A stretch of DNA of 64,000 nt. Origin: Lepidurus packardi. Lineage: Eukaryota; Arthropoda; Branchiopoda; Notostraca; Triopsidae. Below the pieces are notes generated by a model. That model saw nothing but the letters and a program-made list of their open reading frames with translations. It was not told the DNA's origin and ran no database searches. The stretch spans positions 2,501 through 66,500 of the forward strand of contig JAKZAN010000115.1 of assembly GCA_023053545.1 (NCBI GenBank), in the 5' to 3' direction. Both the position numbers and the translations under genes were made by a program. Below are positions 1 to 64,000 of the stretch, one piece after another (position 1 is the first letter of the stretch; every line of letters starts with the position of its first letter).

Positions 1-1006
1 TTTCAGCGAGAAGAGGGTCGGCCGAGAACGTCTATTCGATGATGGCGAGATCGATATTACACTAGTTTATAGCGCAGAGGACCAACCCAAAGACCATTAG
101 CCATAGAGAGATCTCGCTAATAAGCGCACCGATAATCGAAGTAAGGTCCTATCGTCTGATGATAGTCGATGGGATATCATCCATCAGATACAACCCGCGA
201 ACGGTCGCTCGATCTGGTAGTTGAGCATAACTCACGAAAGCATACCTCTTTAAATAATGTGGGGAAAAGACTATGTAAACTTTTGGCGGGGTACCAATCA
301 GAAGAGAGTCGTAAACGATAACTTCGAATGCTATAATGAGGTTAAGAGCGATTAGGGGTCTGACTAAGGGGCTGGTGATGTAGCACAGGCTCCAGAATCT
401 CATAGGAGCCTAGCTTGATTGTGTCAAATCATTGAAATCGATCGTTTAGCCCCAAAATACGATGTGAACGAGGTTGACAAACGCTTTGGAAATCGAAACT
501 CGCAAGGATCTCCCCATTTCGATGAAGCTGGTATTCACATCTGTCTGGATACACACCATAGCAAAGTACTTGGAATCAATTGTTAACTCATCGATCTTCT
601 CCTCAGCAATTCCTACCTTAAATGAATCAGGGCATTCGATGCGCTAGATGCCAGCAATAAAAGTATTGTTGGACGAGTTGTAGTATTCAGTGAAGAGGTG
701 TTTTGCCGGGTCGAAACTGGACTTGATAGTGTCTTTTTTGGTGGAGTTTGCGAAGGGGTGGAGGGTGATTGCCAGCAATTGAGAGGTCATGCTGACATCG
801 GATGTAATTTTCCTCGTGTAGGTGCTGGGGAGCTAGTTAGTTGGAAGCCAGAGATGCGCGATTTGGCTGGAAGCCATGAAAATCGACAGGAGGAAGACGA
901 GGACAGTGAAGCAGATGGTCTTGAAGGTGGTGAACTGTTTGCGTCCAGCGAGGGTCCACCTGGGCTCAGTTCTGAAAATATCGATATTCTTCCTGACCCA
1001 CTGCAT
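1..1006 (-). CDS. Predicted two-span membrane protein, 3' end outside window
   Basis: Reading from an ATG at 1006 leftwards gives about 335 codons with no TGA up to the window edge, so the C-terminus is missing. In-frame TAG/TAA codons (for example at the end of the LWLPTN stretch) are read as Glu. An in-frame TGA lies about 60 nt upstream, which supports this start. The N-terminus has a basic, aromatic stretch (NIDIFRTEPRW) followed by a hydrophobic span near residues 32-52; a long middle region with several N-x-S/T sites follows; a second hydrophobic span (IGALISEISLWLMVFGLVLC) lies near residues 288-307. This layout resembles a large family of uncharacterised ciliate membrane proteins with a short N-tail, one span, a lumenal domain and a C-terminal span. 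That family link is from memory of the architecture only; no enzymatic motif is visible. Confidence 0.7.
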
Positions 1007-1066
1007 ATAGTTTTCTGGGAGATAGACTTGAGATTATTTGTATTTTCTTCTAAATTATAGAAATCA

Positions 1067-2440
1067 GACTTTCGATATACCCACTTTATATATGATTAGA
1101 TATAAAGAAATAAAGAAAAGTCTGTTGCGAGTTCTAGAAGAAGCATAACTATTATCAAATATTTTAAACAGCTAACACCTTTTTGGCTTTTTCTAGTCAC
1201 AATAAAAATTAAGCCTCATCGTCAATACAAAAATACAAATATATATATATAGATTGGAATACCATATCTATATATATAGATTAGCTGAGGTTATCGAAAA
1301 TATTATATTGTCTTTTAATTCATTAGAAACAGAACGGCACAGAAAATAGATATGCACAGGAGGCATTCGTCGGGGGGTTCTTTGTCTCATCGCACAGAAG
1401 TGGCTAGAACAGGCTGCCAAACACACCCCTCCTCATTGGTGACGGCCCCCACACGATTGCTATGGACTCCGACTTTGTGTTCTGTCCGCAGCTGCCCCTC
1501 AACTGTTATTTGCTGTTCAGTCGAAGAACTAAATTGACATTCTCCTTTTTTAATTAGTAAATACCTTTTATATATATATTTATCTGAAAAGGAATAGAAT
1601 AAATAAACCTTCATTATAACATACTGTTCTGTTTTTTTTAAAAATATTAAATAGAAATACTTCAACGAAAAGGACACACGTATGATTCTTCTATATGGTT
1701 TAACCATTATATAAATATATGGATATATGGATGTTCCTTTACATTTTCATTATCATTTGTTAGTCAGGATTTATTGTCGACTATTCTGACACTCTCATTC
1801 CCTGCTGTTTTCTACAATTAAACTTAGTACGCTCACCCAAACGAAGTTTCACAAGCAGGATGACTAAAAGAGATGTCGTCCTTCAAGTCTACTCAGGATT
1901 GGTGCTGCCCCTCATTCCACCATAGTTAACGGGGTGGATTCCGGCCGTGCATGGTCACTGTATATTTCCGACTATGGAAATCACCATGTTAATAAACTCA
2001 TTTTTCTTCTCTCAACATTCCCTATTTATAAATGAAGTAGAATAACCCGTGCTAGTTGGGTCTGTCTTGAGATAACTTTTGACATATTAGGAGTATCCTT
2101 TTCTACTTCTCTTCGTGCTTTCAAAGCATAGACTTTATATATTAGTTTTAGGGCCTGATGCTAGTTAGAGCATCGATGGTGGTACTTCTCATGTGAGGAC
2201 GACCATATATTTGTGTGATGGGGATGGAAGTACACACGAACTGCGTGGTGGATATCTGCAGGTTCTCCCAGTCTCAGGACTTCATAATTTTGGCATATAT
2301 ATCCCTATCAGTTACTTTGCCTCCAGGTTCATCAAAAATATTTATATTTGCTCAGTATCATATTTGGCATCTAATATACACATGCATATCCATATCCATA
2401 TAAAATTTGATATCTCGAACATTCGGAAAGGAGTATGCAT
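1067..2440. other. Intergenic stretch with GC-richer islands, no confident gene
   Basis: About 1.4 kb between the 5' end of the leftmost gene and the 3' end of the GDPD gene. Most is AT-rich. Three GC-richer islands stand out at roughly 1345-1545, 1845-1975 and 2150-2320. None gives a convincing reading frame under UGA-only stops, and no tRNA (no B-box such as GGTTCGA) or 5S rRNA was seen. They could be non-coding RNAs, decayed coding sequence or regulatory DNA. Confidence 0.5.
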
Positions 2441-7474: not shown

Positions 7475-10400
7475 TCATAATCTATCCCTTGAGTTCGACT
7501 TTGTGCCACTCCACTTCGGCATGTCTAGCCTCTGCAGGTAGATCTTCTCCAGCTGTTTGTTCACCTTCACTTCTTTACCTTGACTAGAGTGGTTGTTCCG
7601 CACCGTCTTCTCCTTGCTCGGAGGCCTGTAGAACTACTGCAGACTATCCATCGGGCGTTCATTCAACTGGTGCATCATCGGCCCTCCACTCATGTTGTTG
7701 TTATTTCTATTCCGCTACATAGAGTTATCTGGGTCCAACTTTCTACCAGATGACATAATTTGTGTGGTCGATGCTTGCCTCCTGTGCTGTTGCTCCTTTT
7801 CCCTGCTGCTCATAAGGTAGATCTGGGGTTTCTCGGGAACATCGTTCTTGCCTAAGGGTTTCCTGCTCGGTGGGTTGCGCATTCTTTGTACTCCCGCTGC
7901 ATTGTTGATGTTGCCCGAATTCTGCTCGTCATATCGCTGGTTGTATTGGTTGAAATCCGAAGGCGAGATCCCGAATTAACTATCGTCTGCATCTCCGATT
8001 CCGCTTGTGTCATAGACCACATTGTACTTGCCGGGAGATCTATTAGTTGGCTTGGGGTTGGTGTGGGTATTGGGGACTCGAGAAAGTGGGGCGATTCTTT
8101 CAGAGTCCTATCTGCTCTGTTGGGTCACTACTTTGTTCCTTGCGACTATGGTGTTAGAAGGATAGCCAGAATCTGAAATATCTTCGCTCTCAGACAATTC
8201 GATATCTGGAGTCTCTGCTTTACGCTGTTGTTGGCGTCCTTTAAGAGGAGAGACCTTTACGCTGCTTTTCTTATCCAATCTACGATCACCAGCTTCACCT
8301 TTACCTTTGGAGACAGAAGGAATCACAGGATTCATCACAGGCGAACGGCTGTGCGAACTCGTCTATCGTCTCTCCTTATTGTTATCAGACGGGATTTTGT
8401 TACGGTTATTTCTGACAGCAACTTCAATTTTGGGATTCGCATACTCTTAGATCGTACCTGTCTCACTGAAGGTTACTGCACTCCTCCTCTGGGTGTACTA
8501 GAGCATAGGATCACTATCATTAGCCATATTCTGTCGTCTGTTGTGTGCATTATAGTAGCTGGGTTGTTTGTAGAGTTCATCCTGCGACTCTCGGACAGAC
8601 TTCTCGAGATCCTTGTCATCAATAGTAAACTTCTTACCATTTTGTGTCATTCGAGGGGAGTCATGCTCTTCCCCCTCTTGCTCCTAATACTGATACTGTC
8701 TACGGTGAGTTACTGGTTATTGTCTAATCTCCACTGGGACAGTAGAAAGCTGTTTGGGGTTGGGAACAGCACTGGCAGCTACACTGGAATCGTAGTCTCC
8801 ATTATTTCTGTTAATATTTTTATTCTTGAACCTGAAATCATCTTCTTGTTCACTCAAGAGTTCCTTCATCTGAACAGGTTTCGAAGTAGCCTCTTCCTGG
8901 ACTGTCTTCATGGAGTTCTTGCGTTTGATTTGGGAATTACCGATCTGTTCTTTGCTTGTCTCTGCCTACTTTCTAGACTTTCTGGTGCGGGTAGGTGCTT
9001 GGGAGTTGTCTTTAGCATTGCTATTTTTGGCTAGACTTAGGATATCATCGGGATCTTCCATGGAGTCGGCATTGATAATGTGGGCATCGTTGTTACCCAT
9101 AGGGTCAACAATCTCGCTCTCCTATTAGATAATGTCGATTTGTTCCTCGTCGTCCATACCATTGTTATTCTCCAACTCGGACTTCAATGACTTCAGATTC
9201 TGGATATCATCTTCAGATAGCTTAGAGGCGATCTCGCATTCGTCTTTGTTGAATGTGAAATTTTTCTAGAATTTTTTCGGCTCTCTCGATTCTCCCTCCT
9301 TCAGCTCCTCCAACATATCCTTCATCTCTCTCATAGTCTTCGAAGACTGGTCTTTATGGAGTTTGACTCCACTCTTGCTGCCGATACTTTCTTCTTCATA
9401 TCTCCTGTTCTTCTCTTCACGCGCGTCGAATCTGCTAGCAGTAGGCATGTTGTTGACTTAGCCGATTTGAGCCATAGGGTCAGGTAGCCTCTATTCTCTC
9501 CTCAATGTCTGGGTTAGATCAGACTTCATGAAGTTATTGGATCTCGACAGTGGGTAGCCATTCTGAGGCTCTCCTTCTTCCGCTCTCTTTTTGACTTCTC
9601 TGGCTTTCTTTGCATCTTTTTATACTGATTCCCGCAACATCTTTTATCGCTATTTCTGTTCTACCTATTTCTTCAGTTTGTTATATTCCTGCTGTTTCTC
9701 CCTCAGCTGTTTCTCTAGCAAGATTTCAGCTTCATTTCTATAGGTACTGACCGAGAGATCCTACGTCTGAAGAATTCTGGATTCCCTGGCGAGTGCAGCT
9801 GCTTTCTCATGCTGGGTATCATTCACCGTGTTAGTATCCTGTGCATTGAGACTTCTTTAGAAATATTGATACTGGACTAGATCTTTCTATTTTTATCTTC
9901 CTGATACAGACTTCTGGATGCTCTTGTTCTGATTGTTTGCTTAGTATTGTATAGATTCGTCCAAGAGTTGTTTATCAGATAAGCTGTGGGAGTTCTGCAG
10001 ACTTTTGTCCAAAACTACCACTTCATCGTACTTCTATCCCTGTTGGCTCTGGTCTTTGATTTGGGGTGCATTTTGGACTCCGTAAGATAGTCCACTTTGG
10101 GACTTCATTTGAGATCCTTGCACTGATACTTCATGCATACTTGGGGCTCTATCAGAAACCTGTTTGTTGGTCATCTGCATGGACCGATCCTGCATATTTT
10201 TATCGATTAGAACTGCGGACTTCAGTGTACCTTGCACAGACTGATCAGCTACCGAAGGGTCTCTGATGCTCCCTTGCACAGAACGTTCTTTGTTGCTAAT
10301 GAACACTCCTTGGATGCTTTTGTTTTCATAATCGATAGTCCGAGCGTATTGACCCTCGTCCACCACGTTTTTATTAGGAGCAATACTGCCTTGCACACTT

Positions 10401-13400
10401 CTGTCATCACCTTTCATTCGAGCTTGGATCGACATAGATTTTTGATCAAATGCCTGTCCCTGTGCGCTCTGGTCCTTGTAGTATCGAAGTTGATCACCCT
10501 AAATGCCTGTTTCCCTGAAACTATGATGGCTCCCCTGTATGCTTCGATCTTCACGTTCATTGTTTGGGTTATCTGCCATCATGCTTGTATCCCTCATAGC
10601 GTTCTTTTCGATGGGAGCCCAAGATCCTTGTACACTTGTGTCTTTCAGTTCATTTTGCATTGTGTTAGTATTGGCATTGAGTTTTAGAGGCTAATGGATG
10701 CTTCCCTGAACACTTGTATCCTTATAATTATGCACGGAGGATTCTGCCACACTTTTTTATCTGGGTTCTATCGTACCCTGGATACTGGTATCTTTATAGT
10801 TTCTAACTAAGGGTTATGCTATGCTTTTTTATCTAGGTTCGATTGTGCCTTGGATACTGACATCCTTGAGCTTTGTGGATTAACCCTGAACACTTATATC
10901 TCTTTGTTAGTATTGGCTATTTTGCATACCAACATCGATCCCGTGGACAGATCCTTGGATACTCATATCTTTGTTATGCACTGATCCTTGAATACCGTAA
11001 TCCTTAAGACTCCTCTTTTTCTCTACCGCCGATAATATGCTAGGTTGATACTGCATGGATTTGTCGGCATTAGAAATTCTATCTCCCTGGATACTCCTGT
11101 TGGCGTAGTCTACTGTTTTGTACTTCTGGCTAAACTGCACCGATCTTTCCCGATTCGATACATTGTATTGTTCGCTCTTCTCAACTAGCTGATTTGGATC
11201 AAACATGTTATCCACTGATTTATCCTTCTGCAAATCGGAGTAGGATTCGGAGTTGTTGTCCAGAATATCGAGACATTGCACCTCGACTTATTTTCTACTG
11301 GCCACATGCACGATATTGTATTCAGAGTTGTCCGAGAGACTGAATTCCGAAGGTTCCTCAATACTGCTGTTGAGATTTTGGGTCTGGAATTTGGGAAGAG
11401 GGGGTTTATGGGTTGCCTGGAATTTTAACTTTTCTTCACGGTATTTTTATTTGACCAAGGGTTCGGGGATGCTTTGTTGTCCTACTTCCTCGCCCACCTG
11501 GAACTCACCATCTTCTTCTTCTTTGATTGTAAGAACTGAAGGCTGGGACTCTGAGTCTATTTCTCCGTGCTTGAACTTACTCATTCCAATATAAGAACGT
11601 TCTCTTTAGGATATGATTCCAGATGGCTATGCAATATTTACTACCACGAACTCTTCGCTTTAGTTACCTTTACGGTTCAGAGTAATCTCTCCTTCTTTGA
11701 TCTCAAAGAAATCATCATCTTTGTGGGCATTTGCAGCTCCCAGGATCACGTTGAGTACGGTTACTATCACAACATCTAAAGAACACAAGAAAAGTTGGCT
11801 GAGGGTGGAACTGTTATAGTATCCTATGTAAGCAGCTATGCCGATGGCAGCGAGTGAGTGTATCATGGAGACGAGAGACATCAGATGCAAGGGGAAGAAT
11901 TTGGAGACAGTATCAAGTTGGGACTTGAAGATATAGCAGTTGAAGAGCCTCGAGAACAAGATATTGATATATTTGTGGTTGGTAAGCGTGCAGAAGATCA
12001 GGGCAAAAGTATAGTGGGATTTAGATGTGCAGGATCGAGCAATCCAATTTTGGAACTTCGCGTCTTTCCTGAAGTAGAAGAATATCGTGATGAAGTTGAT
12101 TATATTCACACAGTATAAGGAGGCTAGCGAGGCAAGAATAAGTTCCAAGAGGTTATCCAGCACTTGATTCATGGAAAAGTAGTACACGATAGCGAAGACT
12201 ACCAGTGCTCCCCACTCGAGAATGCCGACTAGGGCATAGATGGCCCCAGAAGCAAAGGTATTGTTGTTTTGGAATTTGGAAACAAGACAAAATGCCACTA
12301 TAACACTGCTTCCTATCGTAAAAGGAACTGGGAATATCTTGCTGCTTGACAGAGTCGTGTTTAAGCGCTGAGTACCCTCGTCAATAGTCACGCAATGAGT
12401 ACCATTGGAGGTCAAATTATTTGGGCAGCTATCTATACAGTTTCCGAGATAGGACAGTTTTGGAGAGTTACAGATCAAACAATAGTCTCCGGCAGTACAG
12501 GTCGCACAATTCGGTTTTGAACACAGAGTACATGCCCCGTTTTTAACAACCGCTTTTGTTGCAGGACATTCTGACACACAAGTGGTATTGTCTAAGAAGT
12601 ATCCACTACTACAGTTCAAGCACACAGTCAGCGAAGAACATGCCAAACAGCCTGTCTTACAAGTGTAGCATATCTGGTTCTGGGCGTAGTAACCATCTGG
12701 ACAGTTCGCAAGGCAAGTATTGTCGAGAAGATTGCCAACCGAACAGCTCGTGCAGTTTGTAGTAGATTTGGAACAGGTTAAGCACACAGAACTGCAGCCC
12801 ACACAGTTGCCAGATAAAGCATCCGCGAACAGGCCGGTCGGGCAATTTTGTACGCAAGAGCTTGTAGAAACAACACGATAATATCCAGAGCTACAAGTAA
12901 GGCATTGGCTAACCTGATTAACGCAAGAGCTGCATCCGGTGGCGCATGGGTTGCAGACAGAGGCTAGACCCACGTACCCAGTTGGGCATGCACTCAAACA
13001 GGAGCTATTTAGCAAGTAAAAATTAGTCACGCAACTCATACAAGTAAAGAAAGAACTGCAGTAAGCGCAAGGAGATACGCAGGATTCACATTTGCTTGTT
13101 GAAGAATTAGCATAAGTTCCATCGGGGCATGTATTGACACAGGTACTGCCAGTCAGGAAAAATGCAGGCGTGGCACCAACGCACGTCAGACAAGTAGTTA
13201 AAGTACCCATGCAAGTGGCGCAAGGGGATGTACAAGAAGTACATACACTATTGATGGGAATCGATCCAGTTGAGCAATTACTGAGGCACAGATTGTTTTG
13301 GAACTGGTATCCGTCAGCACATGCCATGCAATAAGTCGTATTTTTGCATAAAGTGCATACGCTAGGGCATGATACACAGGAAAGACTCGAAGCATTAGCG

Positions 13401-16400
13401 TATGTGCCTGAAGGACAGGCATCCGCTAAGACACAGCTCGTCCCGAAGAGGTATTGAGGAGGAGAGAGAGTGGACAGGCAGGAGTTGCAAGTAGTCTGTG
13501 AGACTGTGCAGGTGGCGCAGGGCGATGTACAGGCAACGCACACCTGGCTAGAAGTAACAAAGCCCGTTGGGCACGAATTTAGGCATCCTCCTTGAAACAG
13601 ATTAAAATTAGCAATGCAGGACGTGCAGACACTCGCAGAACTACATGTCGAGCAAGGGCTGATACAAGCCGTACACACATACCCAGTGCTGTTTGCGAAT
13701 GTCGTGTTGGGGCAAGTCTCCAGGCACTGGTTATTCATTAGGAAGACAGATGTAGATAGATTGGTCAAGCAAGAGGTACAGTTTGTTAAGGAAGAACTGC
13801 ATGTAGCACAAGGCGAGGTACATTGAGAACAAACGCCACTCACAGGAGCGAAACCAGAATAGCAGGTAGAGATACACAAGTTGTTCTGTAGGTACAGGGT
13901 CTTACAGGAAGTACAGTTCGACTGGATCCCGGAACAAGTCGCACAGTCTCCGGTACAGGGCTGTGCGACTCCACTAATATTGACATATCCTGGAGGGACA
14001 ACTGACAAGCATTGTGTGCCTAGCTGAACAAACCCAGTATCACAGGTTTGGCATGCTGTTGAATTCAAACATCTTGTACATCCAATATTAAGATTTGCAC
14101 AACTAAGGCAGGTACTTGTAGCAATATCACTGTAGGTGGTTGAAGGACAAGTGGAATAACATTTATTGTCCAGGAGATAAATAGTGGTAGTACTGGGATC
14201 ACACTTTGTGCAGTTTGTAGATGTTCCTTGGCAAGTCAGACAAGGGGAGTCGCAAGCTGAGCATAAACCATTTTTGATGACCAAGGGTGAAGGACATGTG
14301 GTTACGCATGTGCCCTGGTAAAGGGCAGCGGTGGTTGCACAACTGGTACAGTTTGATGTGGTTCCGGAACAAGTTGCGCAGACAGAGTTACAAGAGTCAC
14401 ATGTGTTTGTTATATTATTTGGTACAGTGGTTAAGGAAGGGCATGTTGTCACACAAGACCCACTAGAAAAGTAAAAATTAGTCACACAACTGAGACAAAT
14501 TGAGATGGTCGTACAAGTTGCACAGGGCGAGACACAAGCCACACACAAAGTCGGAGACTGGGTCGTGTCCGGATACATCCCCGGGCTACAAGTCGAAACA
14601 CAGGTACTGGTGGTTGAGGTTCGATTGAGGAAAGGGAACAGAGACGTCGAGTTACAGCTCAGGCAATTGCTAGAGTTCGTGCTGCATGTGGCGCAAATAG
14701 AATCACACGGAGAACAGAGGAAGCTAGTAGAGTTGGCAAAGTATCCTGAAGGACAGGTTTGCAAACATTGCGACGTAATTGAGTGGTAATAGTTATTTGA
14801 AGTTACAGCCGTGTCTGTATAACAACTGGTACAATTGGCGGGTATGCCTGTGCATGTCCTACAGGGTAGGGTGCAAGTCAGTCTGAACAGGATGTCTGTG
14901 GAACTCTGGTCGATGATGTAGCCACTCGAATCGTAGGAAGTGAACACAGTATAGTCTGTTGGCTATGAGCTAGGAGTTATGAATCCCGATAAAGTGACAC
15001 CCATCGTAGATGTACTGAAAGTACCGCTGACATTCATGATGTTATTAGCAGAGCCAATGTTGCAAGACCCAGAAAAAGCAGAGAAGGATTGGCAAGTCAA
15101 AGTTTGGACCGTAAAAGAGGATGCCAGTGTAGCTATCACATAACCTGTAATTGCGCTAGTTGGTGCGAAAGTCAAAGCGACTGAAGCCGATGATTTTAGA
15201 ATAGTGGGAGTGAAGATTGCGCTGATGGTCGGGAAGTTCGAAGGTCCAGTGTTAGTGATGATGACTGTAGATAAGTTTTGGGAGTAAAAGTTCACCCCAT
15301 CAGGAGTACGTGTTTGAAAGCCAAACCTGCTGCTCGGCTTCATCGATGGTGCATTCTTGACGCTATTAACGACCACCGTAAATCCAGTGTTCGAAGACGA
15401 GGATCCGAGGTTGACAGTAACAGTTTGACTACTGACAGTACAATTCAAACTGGAAGAGCCATTGCTACAAGTAGTTGTAGTTGAAGGAGAAATCTATGCA
15501 GGGAAAATAATATCAAGAAGAGCATTATTTGCAAAGGTTGAAGGTTGGCTCAGCTGGAAAGTATATGCTGTTGTTGCGCTATTAACTGTAGAAACGCGAG
15601 AAATTGATACGACTGGGAAATTCGCAGGAGTTGTCATCGTAATTGATAGGCCCGAAGTGAGTTGGTCGATTGCAGATACTGACGAAGTGTAGGTCGTAAG
15701 GGTGAAGGAAAATACTGATTGGGTGGACAAAGGGTTCGTGAATACTGAAGAAACTTGAAGATTTATTGTTTGATTAGCTGTTGCAGCTGTGCTCTGGAAG
15801 ATCGAGGTGAAGTTGATCTGAGTGAATGAGGCTCCATCAGCTCCCGAGCAAACAGTAGATGTTAGAGTTGTTCCTGTGCCGATCGAAGCTGAACATTGGC
15901 TAGAAACACTTGACGTGAGGACTTTGATGGCAGCAGGTATACCCAAGCTCAAAAAGCCATTTACGGGTATAGCATTCGTGGTAACAAATCTAACGGTATA
16001 AGTGGTAGGCGAGTTCATAACTACAAAGGAACTGGCATTTATAACGACTGATGAACTGTTGAGGGGAGCAGGGGTCGCAATCACGGAACCTCCACTGCCG
16101 GTAGCTACGGCGGTATCATCACCAGAACTAAAGAAAGTCGTGATTGTGAAATTTCCTGAAGATTGATTGGATAATGGATTGATAACCCCAGAAACCGTAA
16201 CGTTAAACGTTTGGGCAGCAATCGATTGGGAAGAGCTATTCAAAGAAGTCAACGTTAGGATTCTTCCTGAAAGTGAACACACAGGCGTCGAACTCATATT
16301 AGTTCCGGCTAATGTCGCACAGCTCGATGAAGTGAAAGCAGGAGTAATGTCTGTAGGAAATGTAATTCTCAACCTCCCACTGCTCAGAATAGTATCAGCA

Positions 16401-17880
16401 ATGGTGATTGTGAAAGTGTAGGAAGTATTGGTGTTGACCAGACTTGTGGTGGGGGTAACAGTGAAACTGAGGGAAGTGACTATGGCTACCAAAGTCGAGG
16501 AGCCAGTCATTTTGGCAAAATTGTTCCTCAATATCGTCATCGAAATGGCGGCAGTTTCCTGAATGGATGTAGGTCCAGTATAGTTAGAGATTGTAATGTT
16601 CAGCAAAAACGTGCTGAAGAAGTTTCGCGAAGCGGTAAACCCAAACGTTAAGACAGTCGAGTTCACAAGTTGGTAGTTGGTGATTGAAGTAAAAGGGTGA
16701 GCGATGGTAATCGATGAAGAGAAGCGAGATCCAGTTGGAAAGGCGATTTGGAAGGTGTCCTGAGGACTGATTGTATCAGCTAGTGTAGCAGTGAATCTCA
16801 AACTGACAGCCCTATTGACCATAAGGGTCGTTGTGGGAGTAATAGTAAGGGACATTGTGTTGGCAACTAGGGAAATTACAGTCGTGGTGCATGAATCAAC
16901 AGGGTAACCATTCATCATAGAACTAATTGTTATGAGATCGATCTGTTCGATCGTAGGAGGGGAAGTAAGGCCATTGACTGAAAAACTGAAGAAGGCCGTA
17001 TTGTTAGTGGTGAAGAGGTTATTAGCTGTGAGCGTATAGGCAGAGTTATCGCCGGTACAGGCGAGCGTGGGGGAGACATTGTTAGAATTATTAGCGCAAA
17101 TCATAGTCGAGGTCAGAGGGAACTTAGTCCTGCTAATATCGTAGTTCCAATTCCCGGTAGAAGGGAACGTGACGACTATGCTCATGGATGAAGTGATTGC
17201 GTTCATCGGTGTCACGGAGATGGTCATAGGATTTGTGCGATTCACGAGGCCTGGGTTAAAGGTAATCGCACAGGACTTAAAACTAGCAGCTTCAAGTATG
17301 ATTCTGGCGTTAGGATTTGCACTGGATAGAGTAAAATCATTGCCGATATAACCCAGGAACTCGTCTGTCTATTTTGCGGGCATCGGGTTCAGCACGTTGT
17401 TGATTGTGATGTTGATAGTGTCTACCGCCGTACTCGTGGTGAAGAAGTTGGCGATAGTAAGGTTGCGACCGGCCATGACACAGCTCGAATAAGGTGCCTA
17501 ATTTTCAAAAAAGAGAACGCATTTGATAAAACAATAAAGAGGCGAGTATATTACGCTGCAGGTATAGCCGACAGAGGTGTTGTATTCTGCAGGGAAGACG
17601 ATGATGATACTGGCGCCAGCGGGTACTGGCTACGTAGTGTAGGGTGCAGGCGAACTGTCATAGTACTGGGTGCGGTCAATTATTATGGTGTAGGTGGTAT
17701 AGGCATTAACAGTTTTGGATGTGCAGTCAACCTCGAGTGTCTTCATCTGGTAGCCTGTGGATGTTCATATTAGTGGGGGAATTGAGTGATTTGGAATGGG
17801 ATGTTACCTGCAGCAGGGGACAGGGAAAACGAGAAGAGGAGGAGGAGGGTGACAAAAAGATAGTGTATGGAGTAGCTCAT
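7475..17880 (-). CDS. Giant receptor-like membrane protein: signal peptide, beta-repeat ectodomain, Cys-rich modules, multi-span core, repeat-rich tail
   Basis: Three exons (17880-17808, 17754-17555, 17497-7475; the 57-nt second intron is a multiple of three and optional) give 3,431 codons ending in TGA, with the last 10,023 nt in one frame. Residues 1-24 form a signal peptide. To about residue 930 the ectodomain is Ser/Thr/Asn-rich with repeated beta-strand-like units (SLSFTVTP, ITFPTD, ...), comparable to REJ-type or adhesin-like modules. Residues about 940-1790 hold roughly two dozen furin-like/growth-factor-receptor Cys-rich repeats (C-x2-C-x2-C patterns). Roughly five hydrophobic spans lie between residues 1820 and 2017. 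The remaining ~1,400 residues are predicted cytoplasmic, polar, with many S-V/I-Q-G repeats (about 2220-2590), a charged coiled coil (about 2610-2740) and a disordered end. Cys-rich multi-span proteins are common in ciliates; this tail is not one I recognise. Role inferred: adhesion or sensing at the cell surface. Confidence 0.85.
10034..11160 (-). repeat. S-V/I-Q-G peptide repeat array inside the giant protein's tail
   Basis: Within the giant gene the minus strand encodes many degenerate units of the form D/K-x-S-V/I-Q-G-S/T spaced about 17-25 residues apart, for example RSIQGD, MSIQGSVHG, TSIQGTIEP, TSVQGSIS, RSIQGSHH, RSVQGSIA, SVQGTLK. Two neighbouring copies (NYKDTSIQGTIEPREKS and NYKDTSVQG) are nearly identical, pointing to recent duplication. 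Weaker copies continue on both sides. The region is polar and probably unstructured. Confidence 0.8.
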
Positions 17881-20398: not shown

Positions 20399-21318
20399 AC
20401 GCCTGGGATTGATTATTTTGGTGTGTGTGTTGGGATATACGAGAGTATGGGTGATTATTTTTATTTTTTGTTTTAGTTCTTCTATTCTTTTTATTTTTGG
20501 ATGCAAAGGGGCGACTAGGAGGGAGAGAGAGGTCCTGACTATATTTATTTATTTAAAGTTATCTTACACTATTTTAAAGGGATGAAAATGAGGATAGGAT
20601 ATTGGTAGAGGTTGGGAGAGATTGACGAAAAATGTATCAAAGAGGAGATTGGAATTTATTTGTTCCTTATCGAGGGGGTATAATGCTCTGGCTGTCTTCC
20701 TGCCTGCTTTCTTTACTTGATCTATTTGTTACCATGGACGAGTGTGCACCTCAGAAAAAGTAACGTCCGACATCACCGATTGAGAGTTTTTCCCAATTTT
20801 TTGAAAATCAGCATTAATTGATATTCGCTTACAGTTAATCAATAAATCGGTGCCCATTGCTCTTAACAAATGATCTGATTAGGATAAATAATGGATCGAT
20901 TTTGTTGTTGTTGTCGTACATCTGTGCCTATGTTATTTTATAAAATATAACGATGAGAAATGAAAAATGATGCAGTTAAATAATAATAAGAGAACGAGAG
21001 AGAGAGAGATATATGTATATATTGGGTTGAGTTTTAACTGCTGGCCTGAACACATGAATTAACAATAAAGAAATAGTAGAGAATCCCCAACATTTAAATA
21101 CCCACAACAAAAAGAATACAGTATTTGTATATGTATATATCTCTATTGAAGGCCTTAGAAAGGTGGGAGTTCTTAACTCTTCCTTTTTTTCTTTATTATT
21201 AGTTGCAACAAAAAATAGGCATCCCACACTTATATAGTTTAGCCAATAACTTCTTGGTATTTCAATAAAACAATAAAAAAACACACAAAATAAACACCCA
21301 ACTCCTAACTTCCCCCTT
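20399..21318. other. AT-rich intergenic region between divergent genes
   Basis: 920 nt between the start of the SAC gene (minus) and the cyclin gene (plus). The sequence is AT-rich with a short GA repeat at 20994-21010. It probably contains both promoters. No RNA gene or convincing frame was seen. Confidence 0.5.
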
Positions 21319-32681: not shown

Positions 32682-33199
32682 ATGTGGCTTTGTCTAAGAC
32701 TGCCTGTCGCAATAGAGAGGGAAATAGATTATTATAATTATTTATTTAATCGTTATTCGGTTTCCGAAAGTTGTAATGAAAACAATGTAATAGATGGGGG
32801 GGGGGGGTGTATTGATTGGAGGATTTTGCTTCGAGAAACATTTCGTGGGGTTGAAAAAACTATAAATGTGTTTTTTATTTTATTTTAGATTATTGTGGGA
32901 GGGGGATTACTGGATAGATAGATAGTGTGATGACATCGGAGCATTAGAGAGAGAGGTATATATATAGATTAAGCTATTTTAGAGGATAGTACAGACCAAC
33001 ACAGAACATGATCAGTAGGAAAGAAAAGGTATATAATTGTGATAGACTGGAAGAGATACATCCCGATATATATACGCATAAATGTACCCCCACTCCCCTT
33101 TTTTACAAATTAAAAAGAGCCATCCCGAAAATATATAGATCTCATAATCGATAGGTCCTATCTTCTAATTTTATCAAGAGACAAAACATAGTACTCAGA
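32682..33199. other. Intergenic region with a 12-base G run
   Basis: 518 AT-rich nt between the divergent starts of the kinase gene and a small plus-strand gene. A run of 12 G lies at 32796-32807. No gene was recognised. Confidence 0.5.
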
Positions 33200-39286: not shown

Positions 39287-39440
39287 CGGGTATCACTATA
39301 AGATTATTATTATAAATGATTATTGGTTATGTGAAGAGTCAGTCTTGGTGTCATTTTGATTCAAAGACGATATAAATATATATCAAAAAGTAAAAACAAG
39401 GAAAATCAATAATAACCCTTGGACTATAATATCTGTTCCA

Positions 39441-42827: not shown

Positions 42828-45800
42828 TCAGAATTAGCCAAGATGCTTACCATATCTGATCATATTCATCTTCCACATCCTCCCCACCTACCCGTAACCC
42901 AGTTCGCTGTTCCCTGCCTTCTTCTGCTGCTGCTTCTGTGAGCAGATAATATTGCTGCTCTCGTGCGACGCTAGTTTATCCGACTGCGAGTAGGATTTCT
43001 CTGTAGAGGCTCTCTTATAGCAGGACGTGCTCAGGTCGACTCGCTGCTTAGGTTGGTCTTCTAATGTCTATGTGTTCTTTTTACGAAGCTCTTCTTTGTG
43101 CTTTTCGCTGACTAAATAGAGTCCCGTCCCTGTGTCCATGCTGGAGTTATTGGGGTGATCCGAGCTCAAGCGGTAGTGAGAAGTGTTGGCGGTTGGCTGG
43201 AGGTTGCTGGTTGTATTGTTGGCCAAACTGCGGTAGGAATCGGGATCCGCCCTTATGCGTTTCTATCTGTTTATGTTTTTGAGATTGGGATTGCGGAAGT
43301 AATATTCGCTAAACTTCGTCTCTCCCGGAATATGTTGTTGGGCCTCGAGCATGTTTTTAATGAATCTCGACCTACGGTCAAAGATGCTGGCTTTGGAGTT
43401 GGAGGCGTTCTACGTTTTGTTTAGATTGCAACTTGCTGGCTCGGCTTATCTGGGCTGGGTGCTTGGATTTGCTGTGAAATTCGGGGATTTCTATTTGGGT
43501 TCAGACTCGGTTACTGTTGGTTTGCGGGAACGTGTTGCTCTGGAGTAACTACCCTAGATGCCCATGTTTTTTTGGGACTCTCGGTTGGCGGACTGGCTAA
43601 CAGACATTTCTCGTTCATCACGATTGTATTTGGTCTCTGTGGACTCTCTTTTGCGGATTCTTGGAGGCAGACCTGGAGATAACACTATATCTTTCATAGG
43701 GTTATCTTCAGTTTTTGTGACGACTATGGAAGGTTTGATGACGACAGGCTTTTCCAGAATACTGAATATGTTGGGCAGTTTAGCAGGAGAGGGCATTCCT
43801 TTTTTCTTTCGACCCTTTCTCTCGATCTTGAACTGGGTGGCATTGGTACTTTTTTTGGGCAGAACCCTCAAGGATCTCTATTCATTCGAGATCTCGAATT
43901 CGAAAGGATCGGAGTCCGAGCCAGAATCTGCGGGGTGATTCCGTTGGTAGTTAACCAATAGGCCTATTTCCCTTTTGGCTTTTTCTTAAACCAATACCTT
44001 TGTGGTATTCTTACATGACTCACTGGAGTAGTAGACATAGAGAGCCTTAAGAAGATTGTTCCCAAAATCAGACATAAAATTAGGAGTAAAGGGGACTCTG
44101 ATGCCTGATTTATCAGCACAGAAGAAAGAACACTCGATAGTCATGACTTTAAAAGAGTTGATGAGGTTAAATATGATCGCCCGCGCAGTAGTGACCTTGG
44201 ACTTATCGAGGTTGAAGGTGCAATCAGGGAAGTTGAACCCAGCGTCGAGCTACTCCAGAATTAGAGGGAAAAGCCTGCACTCGAGTTCGTCTTCTTGTGC
44301 ACAGCTATAGCAGAAAGTGTTGGTCTTTTTGCTGTGGCCGTGCAGATCGAAGAAAAAACTGATCTTATTTTATTTGTGGATTTGTTCAAACTTGCGCTTA
44401 ATAGCGAGTATGGCACCGTTGTAGATCTTCTCACTGCTAGCCCACCTTCGGTTCATGTCTGTGCCGTTCAGATCGCATCTGAAGTTGCCGTAGATCACCC
44501 CGTCCACGTTCACCATCGGGATTAGGTAGATCACGAATCTGCCTCGCAAATACTTGGCTTCTGCTGAGTCTCCCACGAGGTGAGATAGAATTCCTTCCAT
44601 GAGATAAGATGACCACGTCTCACCAGGATGTTGTCTGGCCATGATACAAATCGAATGTTTAGCATGTCTTCCGTTGGTACTTTGTGAACCTCTGGCATGT
44701 GTTTTTTCTGGACTTCCCTCCTCCTCGATTCTGATCATAGGAATAGCATTGTTAGAAAGAGAATACCCCACTATTGAGATCTTGTAGCTTCTAAAAAACA
44801 AAAAACAATATTTTAATGGATAGGATATGCATATATGCTTATTAGAAAGGGTATTACATAGATTTGGAAACCGCAGTTTTCTATAGTTCCTGAATGTTCT
44901 TGATCATCCGTGAATAACTGTAGGGCGGGCACATCGCCATGAAGATAGGGCCCTAGACTTATACGCCTACCTCCAATTCGAAAGAGAGTTGGTAGTAGTA
45001 CTTGGAGTCCTCGCACTCCCGCAACACCCGTGTTTTCTCATACGTGACATTGGCAGTACAACACCTCCAAGTCGCCAAACCAGTCTATTTGTCTGTGGTC
45101 AGCACCCACGGTTTCATCCCCTCGCTAAACAACGACCTGCGTTTGATCTAAAAGACTGATTAAATATAGGGGTTGCTTACGAGATTGACAATTTTGAATT
45201 TGTATTTGCGATTGGGTTCATAGTTGCTGATCGAAAAGTAGAACCACTGTGTATAGCCTTTGCTGTTGGTGTCGTTGCTCAGGACTAGCTCATACTCATA
45301 AGGAGTCTGCAGATTCTGGAAGACAAAGAGTAAATTCCCACATTCGAAATTCGAATCGAATTTAAGTCCAGGGGCATCTGTAACTTTATCTTCGATTGTT
45401 GACGGTTGTTATGTGCTGGGTTGCTGGGGGTAGGGTGCGAGAAGACTGTAGTTGCTGATACAGTAATCGGTGACATGACCAAGATACACAAAATTGGCTA
45501 CATTTCATTAATATATATCCTTGATAGTTGTTTTTTTTGTCTCAGTTGTTATTATTGGGGGTTACCTGCAAAATTCTAGTTGAACTCGAAACCCATGCTA
45601 GCCAGGATTCGGGGCTAGATGCGGGTGTAGATCACTCGGTAGTTATCGCCCCCGAGGTATCTATCGTACAGGGTGGTTTTCTTGTCCTTAGAGACTGTGG
45701 TTCTTTTGGGTCGATTCTCCTCATCTTCCCGTACTGGCAGAGGGGGTACAAACAGAGCAGTGTTCAAGTAATGGGGTTCAGTCCTACAAAAATCAATCAA

Positions 45801-48870: not shown

Positions 48871-49033
48871 GGGTTGGGGTTGGGGTTGGGGTTGGGGTTG
48901 GGGTTGGGGTTGGGGTTGGGGTTGGGGTTGGGGTTGGGGTTGGGGTTGGGGTTGGGGGTTGGGGTTGGGGTTGGGGGTTGGGGTTGGGGTTGGGGTTGGG
49001 GTTGGGGTTGGGGTTGGGGTTGGGGTTGGGGTT
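48871..49033 (+). repeat. Interstitial telomere-type repeat (TTGGGG)n
   Basis: About 163 nt, some 27 copies, of TTGGGG on the plus strand, the Tetrahymena-type ciliate telomere repeat. Two units have five G instead of four (about 48953-48957 and 48973-48977). A degenerate copy (GGGGTTGAGAGGG) leads in on the left; the array stops cleanly at 49033. Because the G-strand reads rightwards, the orientation is that of a right-hand chromosome end, yet ordinary gene-bearing sequence continues beyond it. It may be a chromosome-fusion relic, alternative macronuclear telomere addition site, or an assembly join. Confidence 0.95.
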
Positions 49034-55061: not shown

Positions 55062-58000
55062 TCACTTGACTGACCATTTCTCCTTGTTCCCATCAGGGTT
55101 CACCACCTACATCTCCTACACTTTCTAAAGATCATCCTCGTTCATCGCCTCTAAGAAGCCTGTCTTCTCTCCTAATGCAGGCTTCTTGTCACCCTTCTTT
55201 AGACTCATGAATAGCTCCTTTTGCCTGGTCCTCTCCTTTGGAATCCCTAATCCGTTCATATACCTTTCTAACTCTCCTGGAGCTAGTTCCTTGAGTCCCG
55301 CATAGTCTTCTAGCAAATTCTTCTTATCTAGAGTGTTCTTTAAGGACAGACCCAAAAGTATCTCTTCCATAGCATCAAATGATATACCCTTGTCCTGTCT
55401 CTCACGTAGACTTGTCTTCAGCATGAGTGCGGCTGCGTTGGTGTCACATAAAGCCAAAGCCTGACAGATATGCAACCAACCTTTCTGCTCGATGCAGGTA
55501 TTTTTAGCCTGGCCTATTTAGTAATCATTGAATTCCAGACCATAGGCGTACAAGGCTTTCAGCTGTTCTTTGAAGGAATTAAAGACCTTTGCGACTAATG
55601 GCTCGGTGTAGAGTTTCTTGATGGTGTCCTTGATATTCTTCTCTAACTCTTTTTTCTCCTTGTCTGCCTCGATGACTTTTTGTGCTTGTTTCTTTACCGC
55701 CTCTTTCTTCTTGTCCTCTTCTAATTTCTTATTCTTGAGATCTTACTCTTCCTTCAGCTTCTTCTTTTTGAGAGCCTCTTCTTCTTCTTTGCGCTTTTCC
55801 TCATCCTTCTGCTTGTGTTTTTTCTGCAACTCTTTCTTCGCCTCTTACGCCTTCTTGTCTTCCTCTTCCTGCTTTTTCTTGGCATCCTTTTCCTTTTCTT
55901 CCAGCTCTTTCTTGCGCTTCTCGATCTTCTCTTTCTGTTCGCGTGTGTACTGCTACTTATTCTCCTTTTCCTTGCGCAGCTTCTCCTCGTCCTCCTTCTT
56001 CTTTTCTTTATCCTCCTCCTTCTTCTTCTCTTTCTCTTCCTTCAATTGGTTCTGCTGCTGCTCTAGTTTTTTCTTAACCTCTAATGCACGTTTCTTCCTC
56101 TGCTCCTCATCCTCAGCCAACTTCTTTCGTTTTTATTCCTCCTACTAGTGTTTCTTTCTTTCCACAGCATTTGTTATCTTCTACCCCTTATCCAGCGACT
56201 TGGCGGTGCTTCCTTCATGCCTTTTCATTTCCGAATTCTGCCTCGGAATACCTTTAGCAACGAGGTTCTTCTTCGACTAACTTAATTATCGTTTCATCTC
56301 AGGCTTCTCAACTTCTTCTAAAAGAGGAGTATCCTTCCTCGTGCTTGCCTGACTCGGTTTCGGTGGCAACTGTGCCTTCTTCACGACTCGAGTTTCTTCC
56401 TTGATCTCAACCTTTGTCTCCATCATTCGACACTTCAATTTATCGTTGAGGATATCACTAAAGATTGAGTAGCAGATAGCGTATTTTTCAGGGAGCGCAC
56501 TCACCACATTATTGCTCAGCTTGCGATTCACCATGAATACCTTTTCGACGACTTTTTTGTAATTCCCAGGCAGTTATAGCTGTGGGTCATTCCTGATTTT
56601 GATGGTAAGGTCGCGAGCAGTATCATCTTAGTCATCATCTAGTTTTGAATTCTCACCAATCGATAGTTTCTTGATGATGTCCCGAAGGTGGCCTCCCATA
56701 GGTTCGACGACTGTTATCCGATCTCGTGCGTACGTGTAGATCGTGAACTGCTCGAGGAACTTCAGAAAACCCTAATAATCAATCGATTGGGCTGCCTTCC
56801 CGCCTTCTCTCTTATGGACTATCTTCAGAATATCCTGTATCACCAGTTTGTTCTTCTCGATGCTTTTTTCTTTAAACATGCGCAGTAGATCCACATGACT
56901 CATCAATCCTGCTGAATCCTCCTCAAAAGTATCCTTTTTCTTGAGATTCGAAGCATTCGAATAGCGTATGAACAGCTTTTTCAGGAACTTCTAATATTTC
57001 TTGAGGGTCAGTGCGATCGACATTTCATCTCTGTCCTACTCTTCCCTGAGCAGATTCTCCTTGAGGACCTCAGTGTCCTCGAATAGTTTCTAATTGATTT
57101 CATTATCTTCGAAGAGAACCTTCGCGGCTTGATTCTTTTCGCCTGGGTTCGCCTTGCCCATTGCGAGATTCCTTTGCTCCAGTTCTTTTTTGATCTTTTA
57201 CTTCAGCAATTCCTTTTTCTTATCTATCTTTTCCTGCTACTTTAATTTCCTGATGATCTCCTATTCTTTCTTCTCCTTCATGTTCTCAATGTACTCCATT
57301 ACCTTAATGTTGTTGGAAGCACTAGAGGAAGCACCCTATCTGGTCTTCGTTATTTTGAAATTCCTGCCTCCGTTTGAGGAGGAATTGTTGGCATTAGAAG
57401 AGTTGTCGTTGTTCAGAGATCTCTTATCTATGCGGTCCATCCGTTACATTTTCTAGACTGATTTTTTCCGATGAGCTTATTAAGGCATCTTTCTGGGCGG
57501 ATGTCCTGTTTTTTTGAGCCCAATTCCATGCTGCTGCATGAACATTTTTTCCTGGTCGGTTTAGAATTCCTAATAATCTTTCAGCGGGAAATCTTGTCTA
57601 GAAGTACCTTTGGACAAGTGCGTGCCTCGAGAGTTGAAGCTTCGCTGACTAGCAGTATCATCTCTGTTGGAGCTTCTGGAGTTGATACGAGGCAAGACCA
57701 CCCGATTAGGATCGGGAACTTGAAAGTCTTATTCCTAATGTTGGTTCTAACTGGCTTTAAGCACTTCTTTCTCCACCTAATAAGGATCCCCGAATATCTT
57801 CAAGATCTCGAGGATTCCCTTGTGCTGGATTTTGTAGTGCTGCGCCACTTGGATTCTCAGATGGACAGACAGGTTCTTAATCTCATTATTCAGATCAAAA
57901 CACTCCTTTTTACAAAGATATATGATGAAGTTAACGATTTCTGCTCTTTTCTGCATTGCCAGCCGTGTAGCATCGTCAGAAACGTTGTTCCTATTCGTTG

Positions 58001-59916
58001 GTCGTTTTTTTAGCGAGGAGAAGAAGATTGCCAGACTTATTTTTACCAGCTTAATCGTATAACTCACAAAGGACTCGTCATCCATGAACCTATCGATCAG
58101 GTACTCCATGATGGGCTGCACAGACTTAGTGAATATGTGATCGTTTAGGAACACTTTCGCAAGGAAGTCAAATAAGTCAATTGCAGTCCTCACTTTCAGT
58201 TTACGATGCTCAGATGCCGCCTTCATGAACTCGATGTCGAACACATTCAGGATGTAGGTTTTGGACTCACTGACTTTGAGCTGTTTGATGAAGGGCTCCA
58301 TGAATATCTCGACAGGGATGGACTGGTAACGTTTGAAGATGTCTCTAAAGTTGGCGAGGATGTTCTCCCTTACATCTATGTTTTCGTGGTTCTAAATGAA
58401 CATGAAAGTCATCTTTTTGTAGAGGATGGATGCGTAGGAGTTTTTTTGATTCGCGAAGTGGTTGAGTAGATCGAACAGCAGCTCTAAAAGAGTGAATCTG
58501 AGCACGTTATTGTCCTCGCGGATGCCTTTTTTAATGTAGTTGAGGATATTATTGACCAGATTTAGTGTTTCCTCAATATGGATGGGATAGGCTTTCCAGA
58601 TTCTAAGCAGTAACTCGATACTCACGACTCTCATCTCAGTACTGTTACGGTAGTCACTATCCGCACCCTTTTATGCCAACTCGATCCAGTAGTCTAGAGC
58701 CCCGCTATTCAGAATCTCCTCAGAACTAATTTTGGACTCTATCAGTGAGTTGAAGATGATGAGAATGAACCTAAGGTAAGCGATGTTGTCGGTAGTAAAC
58801 TTGCGTAACTATACAGTGAAGAGGTCACTGACATTGTATCTTCCAAATTGGAGGATGTAACCGACTGCGCTTTAGCTGAGTTTCGGATGCCTAGTAAGAG
58901 CGAGTATTGTGGTGGCGAGCCCCCCATTCTCCTTGATAAGCCACTCATAAGCGATCGGGAGTAAATCATTATTGGCCAGATCCAGTCCAAGTTTGCTCAG
59001 GATTCGGCAGGCCCATAATGCGACTTCTTCGCTTTTGGAGAGAAGAGCTGGTTTGACAAGCTGAAGATAAAAGGTGCACATCTAGTTGTTCGTAACCATC
59101 ATTGCAACAACCCTTTCATTGTCCTGGTAGAACTTTTCAAGGACAGCTTCGACTTCTTGGAAACTTCCCTTGATGCCTTTCACATAGACATGGGCCAAGT
59201 ACTTATTATTATCAGCAACGAGGGCCACGGCTTGTTTGCGGGTGAGTTTAAGTTTAGAACCAATCACATCCAAAACGTACTCTAAGAGATCCGATGTTCC
59301 ATTTCCTTGGTTACTATCAGGATTTCCTGGTAGCATGGACTTCTCGATGTTGGACTCGGACAAGGGCTGCTGGGAGAGGTTAGAGTTTGTATTGATTGGC
59401 GCAGACTGTCTGTGGGTACTGGATTTGCTGGGGTTGTTATTATTGGATGCCATGTCCAGAGAATCGTCAGCATTCTCCTCCTCGTATAGTTTCTTGAGTC
59501 CATATATGATTTTGAGGAGAGCCTCATGGTCACCGTTGATGATCTTGTTCTTTTCTTCAATGTCTACTTCGAAGTTAACTTTTCGCATGGCCTAGGCAGT
59601 TATTAAACGAATACTGATCAAAAATCAGGGAGGAGCGTGTTGCTTTGCTGTGATGGGTTACCTCGTTGAGAATGTTCCAGTTGTACAGTTTAGCGGCGGT
59701 GTGCGTTGATTTCTTGAGATGCGCCAGGCCCTGAGGAGCAGGCAGACCCTTCTTGAGGTAGATCTCTACGAGTAGTTCAGAGATCTTGATTCCATTTTCG
59801 AAGAGTTTGGTGATTTATTATGGGATGAGAGAGAAGCCATTGGGCTGGAGGGTCTTGTCATTTTTGATGAGAGAGATGGAGACCATCCACCTGTAGAGTT
59901 CGAGTTAGACTTCCAT
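55062..59916 (-). CDS. Large CH-domain, helical-repeat and coiled-coil protein (1,594 aa)
   Basis: Exon 59916-59662, a 70-nt intron and exon 59591-55062 give 1,594 codons ending in TGA, with the last 4,530 nt in one frame. Residues 1-115 form a SPEF1/CLAMP-type calponin-homology domain: LFENGIKISELLVEIYL, AAKLYNWNILNEAMRKV, INGDHEALLKIIYGLKKL. Residues ~180-620 are ARM/HEAT-like helices (ALWACRILSKLGLDLANNDL, GRYNVSDLFTVELRKFT). A Ser/Arg-rich linker is followed by helices with an EF-hand-like stretch near 1030 (QSIDYEGFLKFLEQF), then a very Lys/Glu-rich coiled coil (~1230-1410) and a globular end (LGLSLKNTLDKKNLLEDYAG). CH_2 domains bind microtubules and occur in axonemal proteins such as SPEF1/SPEF2; no adenylate-kinase domain is seen, so it is not a plain SPEF2. 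Ciliary or cortical role inferred. Confidence 0.85.
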
Positions 59917-62305: not shown

Positions 62306-63433
62306 ATGTTCGCCCAACCTATGGGTTTCCGTGGCAAAATTCTCAAACCCACCCATCTTCGAACGAGCAACCCTCCCAATACCCACCATACCAATCTCAA
62401 TACCAGCATCCAGCACAACACTCACAACCGCAACACCCAGACTGCCAAACTCCTAGCCGCTGCCCAAGTCACTTCTTATCGCTGCAAAAGTTCTCTCGAC
62501 AATCCTAATCCAGGCAAATGCACAAAAACCTAACCCGATGATCAGACTTCGACCGTGAAAAGCCCGACGCGTCGAAGCCTGTTTGAAGTCTATAAATAGC
62601 ACCATCGACTCAAATACAGCCCTAAAATCCACTCAGTCTATACCAACTCCGAGCAGAACTCGACACTGGAAGATTCTCTACGAAATCTCAACATATATTC
62701 GAAATTCTTTCACTGCAGCCTCAATAGGAGATCCAAGCAGAGCAACAGCCACAACAGCAACCATAGAAACTATCCAATACATAACAAACACCCGAATCAT
62801 GATAGACCTGATCCTTTCAGCGAGTTTTCTTTTGTAAGGCGCAAGTCATTGGAGAACAAATGGATCACAAACGATGGCCAGAATCATTTGTTGCAGGGCA
62901 AGGAAAGGGTCAGACTAAGTTTCCTAGACTCCATAGTCAAGGAAGGGCAAGCAGCATCCCCGTAGAAGCACCCAGAAGATATGCAGAGTCTCCTTAAGAT
63001 CGTGAAGTTACGAGAGTTCCATAAAAACTTTGTAGACAAAGACAATAACTCCCTGGATGCTATGATGCATGTAACTCGTAACAATGAAGGCAGCCAGAAT
63101 ATGAAGTAGTTAGGGGATTGGAAGCACAAGAGTGAAGAGCCCAGCAAGTTTACCACATTCTATCAATAAAACTAAACCCTTATGCGTCCCATGACCGAGG
63201 GCAAAGCCATGCAGATCAATTAGCGTGCCAACTGGAGAAAGGACATGATGGCGTCTACGCTCATGTCAAAAGAGAGAATTAGATGGGAGAGAGGGACCAA
63301 CAATGCTTTTAAGTACTAACAGAGGAATTTGGAGCGTTATCGTCGGAAGAAAAATAAGAAAATGACGAGCAGTGAAGGGATTTTCACTCCATGGCCGAGC
63401 GAAAACACTGCAGAAGATCACTATCTGTTCTGA
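62306..63433 (+). CDS. Basic, Asn/Ser-rich protein, unknown function
   Basis: A single open frame of 375 codons ends in TGA. The N-terminal half is Asn/His/Thr/Ser-rich and disordered (NPPNTHHTNLNTSIQHN). The second half is more conserved-looking, helical and basic: RKSLENKWITNDGQNHLLQG, LLKIVKLREFHKNFVDKDNN, EGKAMQINERANWRKDMMAS, RWERGTNNAFKYEQRNLERY. Seven or more UAR codons are in frame. It is hydrophilic without membrane spans or known motifs. The Trp/Arg-rich C-terminal helices might bind RNA or membranes, but that is a guess. Confidence 0.7.
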
Positions 63434-63705
63434 GTACGCAGGGTGTATTTTTGTGTACCATTGGTATAGGGGAGGTATTGTGATAGAATTTTTGAGTAAA
63501 ATATGCGTACCAGATATTAATATCTTTGTACATTTCGATATATATATATATATATGTGCTACTCTCTTAGAAACAACAGAATCATGAGTCCGAAGAATAC
63601 TCTAAAAGTCTTCACTTATATTTATTTATTTATTTATCTACTCCCTATTCAGGCAGGATCATTACTAATAACCAGAGTAAGAGAGAGAATCTAAGCTATT
63701 GCCCA

Positions 63706-64000
63706 ATGAACCCTCACAACAACAACAATAATAATAATAATACCCGCCTTCTCGACTCCCTCCTCTAGATACTCGCTTCTCAGTACCCTTTTGTACGCTA
63801 CTATTTCACTCTACTCACCACCTTCTTGCGCAGCGTGGCCCATCTCTCCAACCTCAATCAGTACTCCCACAAAACCACAGAGTCCCTCCGTCTACTCCTC
63901 TAGATCATTCAGTAATCCAAGCCGCTCCTAACAGATCGCAACAAAAACTATCTCTAACTCAAACCCCTATTCGTCAAAATCACTTCAATCTCCAAACACA
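63706..64000 (+). CDS. Partial gene at right edge, unknown helical protein
   Basis: An ATG at 63706 opens a frame with no TGA to the window end (98 codons seen). It starts with an Asn run (from an AAT/AAC repeat), then a helical, Leu-rich region: TRLLDSLLEILASQYPFVRY, YFTLLTTFLRSVAHLSNLNQ, ESLRLLLEIIQESKPLLTDR. UAR codons supply Glu at helix surface positions. The pattern suggests an all-alpha domain; the family cannot be named from this part. Confidence 0.6.

Follow-up and report, generated by a model that had tools for sequence, protein, structure and literature searches.

Background

The ciliates Vorticella and Opisthonecta use the peritrich nuclear code (NCBI table 30), in which UAA and UAG (together UAR) stand for glutamate (Glu) and UGA is the stop codon. 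The first report of this reading in peritrichs is said to be that of Sanchez-Silva in 2003, and a study of three peritrichs reportedly states in its title that stop codon usage is less biased there than in other ciliates. Passages of PMC11687900 and PMC10553269 describe UAR as Glu with UGA as stop for peritrichs; the latter, in the excerpt consulted, counts Campanella and Carchesium as members of table 30 and maps the reassignment to the Peritrichia, where it evolved once among the sampled species. Code predictions for these two genera are also given in an excerpt of PMC4967479. The window analysed here is a stretch of 64,000 nucleotides (positions 2501–66500 of contig JAKZAN010000115.1, C104 in our numbering) from an assembly filed under the branchiopod Lepidurus packardi. 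We conclude with high confidence that the window derives from the macronucleus of an oligohymenophorean ciliate which uses table 30 and which is most likely a peritrich. This conclusion is supported by the meaning of UAA and UAG, by the behaviour of UGA, by telomeric repeats at the contig ends and by a grouping with the Oligohymenophorea in a tree of one gene. The code itself is already described; what is new is one further organism using it, on telomere-capped contigs inside the assembly of another organism.

Results and Discussion

The meaning of UAA and UAG

For decoding, a set of 51 different kinase domains from the same assembly (from three regions of the window together with 48 loci elsewhere) was aligned to a profile with UAR written as X, and for each codon the residue was predicted from the aligned columns. 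The overlapping loci L004 and L007 on contig C240 hold two kinases, which were counted once each. For external reference 240 RSK-type kinase domains, the named ones metazoan, were included and together weighted as ten sequences; a row was kept only if it covered at least 80 (ciliate) or 150 (external) match columns. UAA (n = 77) reached +77.1 nats for Glu, -8.4 for glutamine (Gln) and -18.8 for lysine (Lys), a lead of 85.5 for Glu, and UAG (n = 86) reached +64.2 for Glu, +11.2 for Lys and +0.9 for Gln, a lead of 53.0. At columns conserved to at least 85%, Glu stood opposite UAR in 20 out of 20 cases (UAA 13/13, UAG 7/7). At those conserved to at least 70% it did so in 24 out of 27 (UAA 16/17, UAG 8/10), the remaining three being glycine, proline and Gln, and here CAA and CAG fell mainly on Gln (12 and 24 times).

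The method was controlled by masking the sense codons one after another; the true residue came out first for 51 out of 61, GAA and GAG among them. The ten failures were TGC, TGG, CAA, CAG, CGC, ATG, ACC, GTC, GTA and GTG. Because masked CAA and CAG came out as Lys, Gln has to be regarded as a hard residue for the masking method; in the test of UAR these two codons were left unmasked, hence Gln columns were available.

Five genes of the window carry the codons on which the first-pass annotation had based the same reading:

19293..20636, minus strand, exon of a SAC-domain phosphatase, with UAA 19542–19544 opposite the Glu of an ETEQ motif
21058..22347, plus strand, exon of an A/B-type cyclin, with UAA 21847, UAA 21931 and UAG 22057 all in columns where Glu is nearly invariant
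31608..33011, minus strand, protein kinase, with UAG 32514 at the alpha-C Glu and UAG 32634 in the glycine loop
36968..38215, plus strand, protein kinase, with UAG 37598 at the alpha-C Glu
39360..40880, plus strand, pseudokinase, with UAG 40233 at the hinge Glu and three successive in-frame TGA at its end

All seven codons named there are indeed UAR in the frame claimed (TAG at 32514, 37598, 32634 and 40233, TAA at 21847, 21931 and 19542), and their position at a conserved Glu was borne out for the alpha-C, hinge, cyclin and SAC sites; at the glycine-loop codon 32634 there is no conserved Glu. Both alpha-C codons fall on a single column, the sense residues of which include 40 Glu and 2 phenylalanine, and the commonest sense residues of the hinge column are 40 Glu, 4 aspartate and 1 Gln. 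The hinge codon also faces Glu in all four PDB sequences displayed, each of them S6 kinase beta-1. Among 49 cyclin homologues, Glu stands opposite 21847 in 48, opposite 21931 in 49 and opposite 22057 in 47, and the five PDB cyclins displayed (four B1, one A2) all have Glu at the first two sites. Of the 13 UAR in the cyclin frame 11 were tabulated, the omitted two sitting in columns with at least 30 gaps; the remaining eight of those tabulated lie in variable columns. For the SAC codon 19542, Glu was found in three of the three PDB sequences displayed, two of which are yeast SAC1.

A second comparison used Pfam scores of ten proteins, nine from the window plus the Pelota protein of contig C219, each translated under four readings. 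Non-overlapping matches above the cut-off were summed by hand, leaving out sub-threshold WD40 matches as well as PK_Tyr_Ser-Thr and other secondary kinase models, which overlap with Pkinase. In total Glu exceeded Gln by 23.2 bits, tyrosine (Tyr) by 73.9 bits and the combination UAA = Lys, UAG = Glu by 12.3 bits. Single contributions, with Glu and with Gln respectively, were 165.2 and 161.5 bits for Syja_N of the SAC exon, 236.9 and 231.2 bits for Pkinase of the minus-strand kinase, and 204.5 and 200.1 bits for that of the plus-strand kinase.

These data bear on two other codes known from ciliates. Reading UAR as Gln (table 6), the commonest ciliate variant according to passages of PMC11687900, gives slightly higher scores for Myosin_TH1 (46.9 versus 45.1 bits), for eRF1_2 (63.4 versus 62.9) and for the sub-threshold WD40 matches. 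In the kinase decoding this reading nevertheless lags behind Glu, the gap being 85.5 nats with UAA and 63.3 nats with UAG; it explains one of the 27 UAR at columns conserved to at least 70% where Glu explains 24, and loses in the Pfam total; moreover, two tRNA-Gln genes on the ciliate contigs carry, judged by eye, the ordinary anticodons CTG and TTG. We regard it as very improbable.

The other possibility, UAA = Lys with UAG = Glu, has a genuine precedent within the same class in Oligohymenophorea sp. PL0344, as stated in an excerpt of PMC10553269, and it scores marginally above Glu for the pseudokinase (53.6 versus 52.7 bits) and for the plus-strand kinase (204.6 versus 204.5). It is equally hard to uphold in view of UAA alone, for which Glu is far ahead of Lys and all 13 cases at the most conserved columns are Glu. 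Furthermore, Lys-dominated columns are rarer for UAA (6/77) than for UAG (22/86), opposite to what this code would lead one to expect, both cyclin UAA codons face Glu almost without exception, and the Pfam total is lower. Thus, with each codon tested separately, UAA and UAG both read best as Glu, as the first-pass annotation had held; Gln, Tyr and the PL0344 combination all fit worse. Its proposal to tabulate the residues opposite UAR gave Glu as the dominant residue, neither Gln nor Tyr.

UGA as the stop codon

By hand count, 127 of the 136 kinase matches in the assembly are on contigs C73 and up, and TGA occurs in five of these 127. In all five the TGA lies in an insertion relative to the kinase profile, as expected within introns. 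Among 12507 aligned match codons there was no UGA, but the alignment was made from segments already split at TGA. Gene ends were checked in five cases, and in two, those of the pseudokinase and of the VPS9-domain exon listed below, the first TGA is immediately followed by two more in frame. An enrichment of UGA 3' of genes is described for PL0344 in the part of PMC10553269 consulted. That genes end in TGA is partly inherent in a reading of frames in which UGA is the only stop; the insertions and the tandem TGA nevertheless agree with the earlier claim that UGA terminates translation. Judged from these sequences, UGA appears to behave as a stop only, as it does in table 30.

Two open frames are particularly long under this reading:

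7475..17764, minus strand, 3429 codons, 42 of them UAR, uninterrupted by UGA, with a Cys-rich Furin-like_2 domain
55062..59624, minus strand, 1520 codons, 39 of them UAR, likewise uninterrupted when UGA is read as the only stop

With TGA at 0.0182 per triplet in the window, one would expect a frame free of TGA with a chance of approximately 4e-28 for 3429 codons and 7e-13 for 1520 codons. One might still suppose that UAR are ordinary stops, present in pseudogenes, introduced by sequencing errors, or met where germline-limited DNA has been read out of frame, and indeed most domains are interrupted by standard stops. Yet it is UAR and not UGA that is found inside the domains, a count which holds for segments cut at TGA beforehand, while the five TGA checked without such cutting were all in insertions. 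Together with the position of UAR on Glu columns and the two long frames without TGA, this makes ordinary stops close to inconceivable.

Telomeres and placement of the ciliate

The contig of the window carries a GGGGTT telomere at its right-hand end. Six contigs offered 10 readable ends between them, and CCCCAA/GGGGTT repeats stand at 9 of these. Three of the contigs, C258, C207 and C335, carry them on both sides and in this resemble whole macronuclear chromosomes. The same repeat also occurs inside the window:

48871..49033, plus strand, interstitial GGGGTT array of 163 bp, with unit and orientation of the contig's right-hand telomere and followed by unique sequence

This array may mark a former or alternative end of a chromosome, a site of fusion or a join made during assembly.

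The Pelota protein (417 amino acids, contig C219, its gene ending in TGA) falls into a clade with Tetrahymena, Pseudocohnilembus and Paramecium (support 100/99) in a one-gene tree with midpoint root. Its sister group, again with 100/99, consists of three environmental sequences (P0121, P0154 and P0184). By this tree the organism would belong to the class Oligohymenophorea. One of the environmental sequences, P0184, stops at 229 amino acids, as a gene using UAR might in a standard-code translation.

The first-pass annotation had placed the organism among the peritrichs by its code. The Pelota tree carries this as far as the Oligohymenophorea, and within them a peritrich is likely, not proven. 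The peritrich part is weakened in that, among the 120 proteins listed for comparison, none is named as a peritrich, and the nearest rows are the three environmental sequences. The organism could therefore be an unsampled sister of the peritrichs or a non-peritrich oligohymenophorean with an independent UAR = Glu. An excerpt of PMC10553269, however, maps UAR = Glu to Peritrichia alone and to a single origin among 46 ciliates, and we consider such an affiliation unlikely. A separate non-peritrich lineage in which UAR turned to Glu independently, thus a second origin within the class, appears slightly less likely again.

The placement also bears on a code of the Blastocrithidia type, with UAR as Glu, UGA as tryptophan and UAA doubling as stop. 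Its UAR = Glu is reported in the abstract of PMC12153298 and would agree with the decoding above, but the five UGA examined occupy no profile positions, and the telomere unit and the Pelota tree fit a ciliate, so that we give this explanation hardly any weight. Table 30 remains the reading to be preferred, and it has to be set against several observations of another kind.

Conflicting observations and components of translation

Not everything agrees with UAR as Glu, and the points that count against it are collected here. With the RSK-type domains as the sole reference (90% conserved columns), UAG stood opposite Glu in just 6 out of 14 cases, a weaker result than the 16 out of 20 for UAA; for comparison, GAA did so in 77 of 111 and GAG in 47 of 76 cases. 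The surplus of UAG over UAA in Lys-dominated columns is significant (Fisher p = 0.003). A fit of a Glu/Lys mixture yielded apparent Lys shares of 0.39 for GAA, 0.37 for GAG, 0.33 for UAG and 0.20 for UAA; since the shares of GAA and GAG are larger, we take the Lys excess of UAG as background and not as decoding by Lys. The glycine-loop column with UAG 32634 has Lys 13, Glu 12, serine 7 and Gln 6 as sense residues in the kinase profile, the five UAR of Pelota are on columns without Glu preference, and the domains at which Gln is slightly ahead have been mentioned above.

To the same side belong negative results on two components of translation. By analogy with established ciliate biology, Glu would be brought to UAR by suppressor tRNAs resembling tRNA-Glu, with UUA anticodons, CUA anticodons or both, and eRF1 would be altered to recognise UGA only. 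The assembly was scanned for a UUA/CUA anticodon loop together with a T-loop and for a Glu/Gln-type D-arm with loop, allowing up to two mismatches. No UUA or CUA tRNA was found on ciliate contigs in these pattern scans, of which one anticodon-loop and T-loop scan is represented by about the first 100 of its 226 matches, ending on contig C4. In two of the anticodon-loop and T-loop scans the numbers of pattern matches were near those of reversed-pattern controls (69 versus 81 and 78 versus 70). The eRF1 domain searches yielded no ciliate eRF1: besides Pelota on C219 there were matches only on C2 and C5.

Real-looking tRNAs on the ciliate contigs are of the Lys and Arg types (ARAGORN) and, with the anticodon judged by eye, of the Val, Gln and His types. 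An ordinary tRNA-Glu was found on no ciliate contig either, a human tRNA-Glu query matching two places which are both on C2, and the tubulin search, which showed a single divergent tubulin on C321, produced no alpha or beta type assignable to the ciliate. The ciliate is probably represented incompletely in the assembly. Because alpha and beta tubulin and the ordinary tRNA-Glu are missing from its contigs too, the missing suppressor tRNA and eRF1 are uninformative.

The tRNA scans gave some further observations. A UUA candidate on C183 was rejected, as it showed no plausible T-arm by eye. On C42 tRNAs are closely spaced, and a repeat at C4:405125-474043, with 28 near-identical places, surfaced as false matches to the tRNA pattern.

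Further genes of the window

Three more exons with recognisable domains were compared under the different readings:

29115..30218, plus strand, exon with a VPS9 domain, with three successive in-frame TGA at its end
33721..35433, minus strand, exon with an NYD-SP28 domain, among the five gene ends checked
42828..44903, minus strand, exon of an M14 carboxypeptidase, 55.2 bits with Glu as well as with Gln and thus without discrimination

The scores of these three domains were equal or near-equal across all readings. In a Pfam scan of 20 frames of the window with UAR set to X, families comprised the SAC phosphatase, the cyclin, the two kinases, the pseudokinase, the M14 carboxypeptidase, VPS9, NYD-SP28, a Furin-like repeat and weak WD40 matches; 10 of the 20 frames had no family, and the frame at 55062–59624 had no Pfam match. 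The product of 7475–17764, very long and rich in serine, threonine and cysteine besides its Furin-like_2 domain, is perhaps a ciliate surface protein. The pseudokinase at 39360–40880 has an unusual make-up: it shows a kinase fold in which, when aligned with PDB sequences, the catalytic-loop and DFG segments deviate from the usual motifs, and its N-terminal part holds a Myosin_TH1 match above the cut-off.

Composition of the assembly

The assembly comprises 108.6 Mb in 344 contigs. Six large contigs from another organism make up its bulk (C1–C4 have 12.9–14.0 Mb each), and the ciliate-type contigs sampled measure 51–143 kb. Among nine kinase matches on C1–C6, four contain no stop codon and three contain all three stop codons, which fits a standard-code organism with introns read through. 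Contigs C43 and C95 hold stop-free matches to the Tubulin/FtsZ family in long frames, which we take as bacterial FtsZ; contig number alone is therefore insufficient to define the ciliate set. There seem to be at least three sources: the large contigs with the standard code, the ciliate contigs capped by telomeres and, probably, bacterial contigs, to which the closely spaced tRNAs on C42 also point. We take the ciliate contigs as a cobiont or contaminant fraction in the assembly of a mostly standard-code organism.

For annotation this means that the ciliate contigs require table 30, as standard gene-finding would truncate many genes. The earlier statement that other codes would mis-translate every gene goes too far, since some kinase matches on ciliate contigs are without UAR.

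Comparison with known codes

Genome data from peritrichs are scarce according to an excerpt of PMC12411067. In the DNA described here UAR is plainly sense in an oligohymenophorean, probably a peritrich. The Blastocrithidia code shares UAR = Glu; it differs in UGA = Trp and in UAA doubling as stop, and that organism has no kinship to ciliates. Closer are the codes of the same class. In Tetrahymena and Paramecium (table 6) UAR is likewise sense and UGA the stop, the difference being that UAR there means Gln. PL0344 agrees in UAG = Glu and in UGA as stop and differs in UAA, which is Lys there and Glu here. With the peritrich nuclear code the likeness extends to UAA and UAG as Glu and to UGA as stop, and no difference in the code was found.

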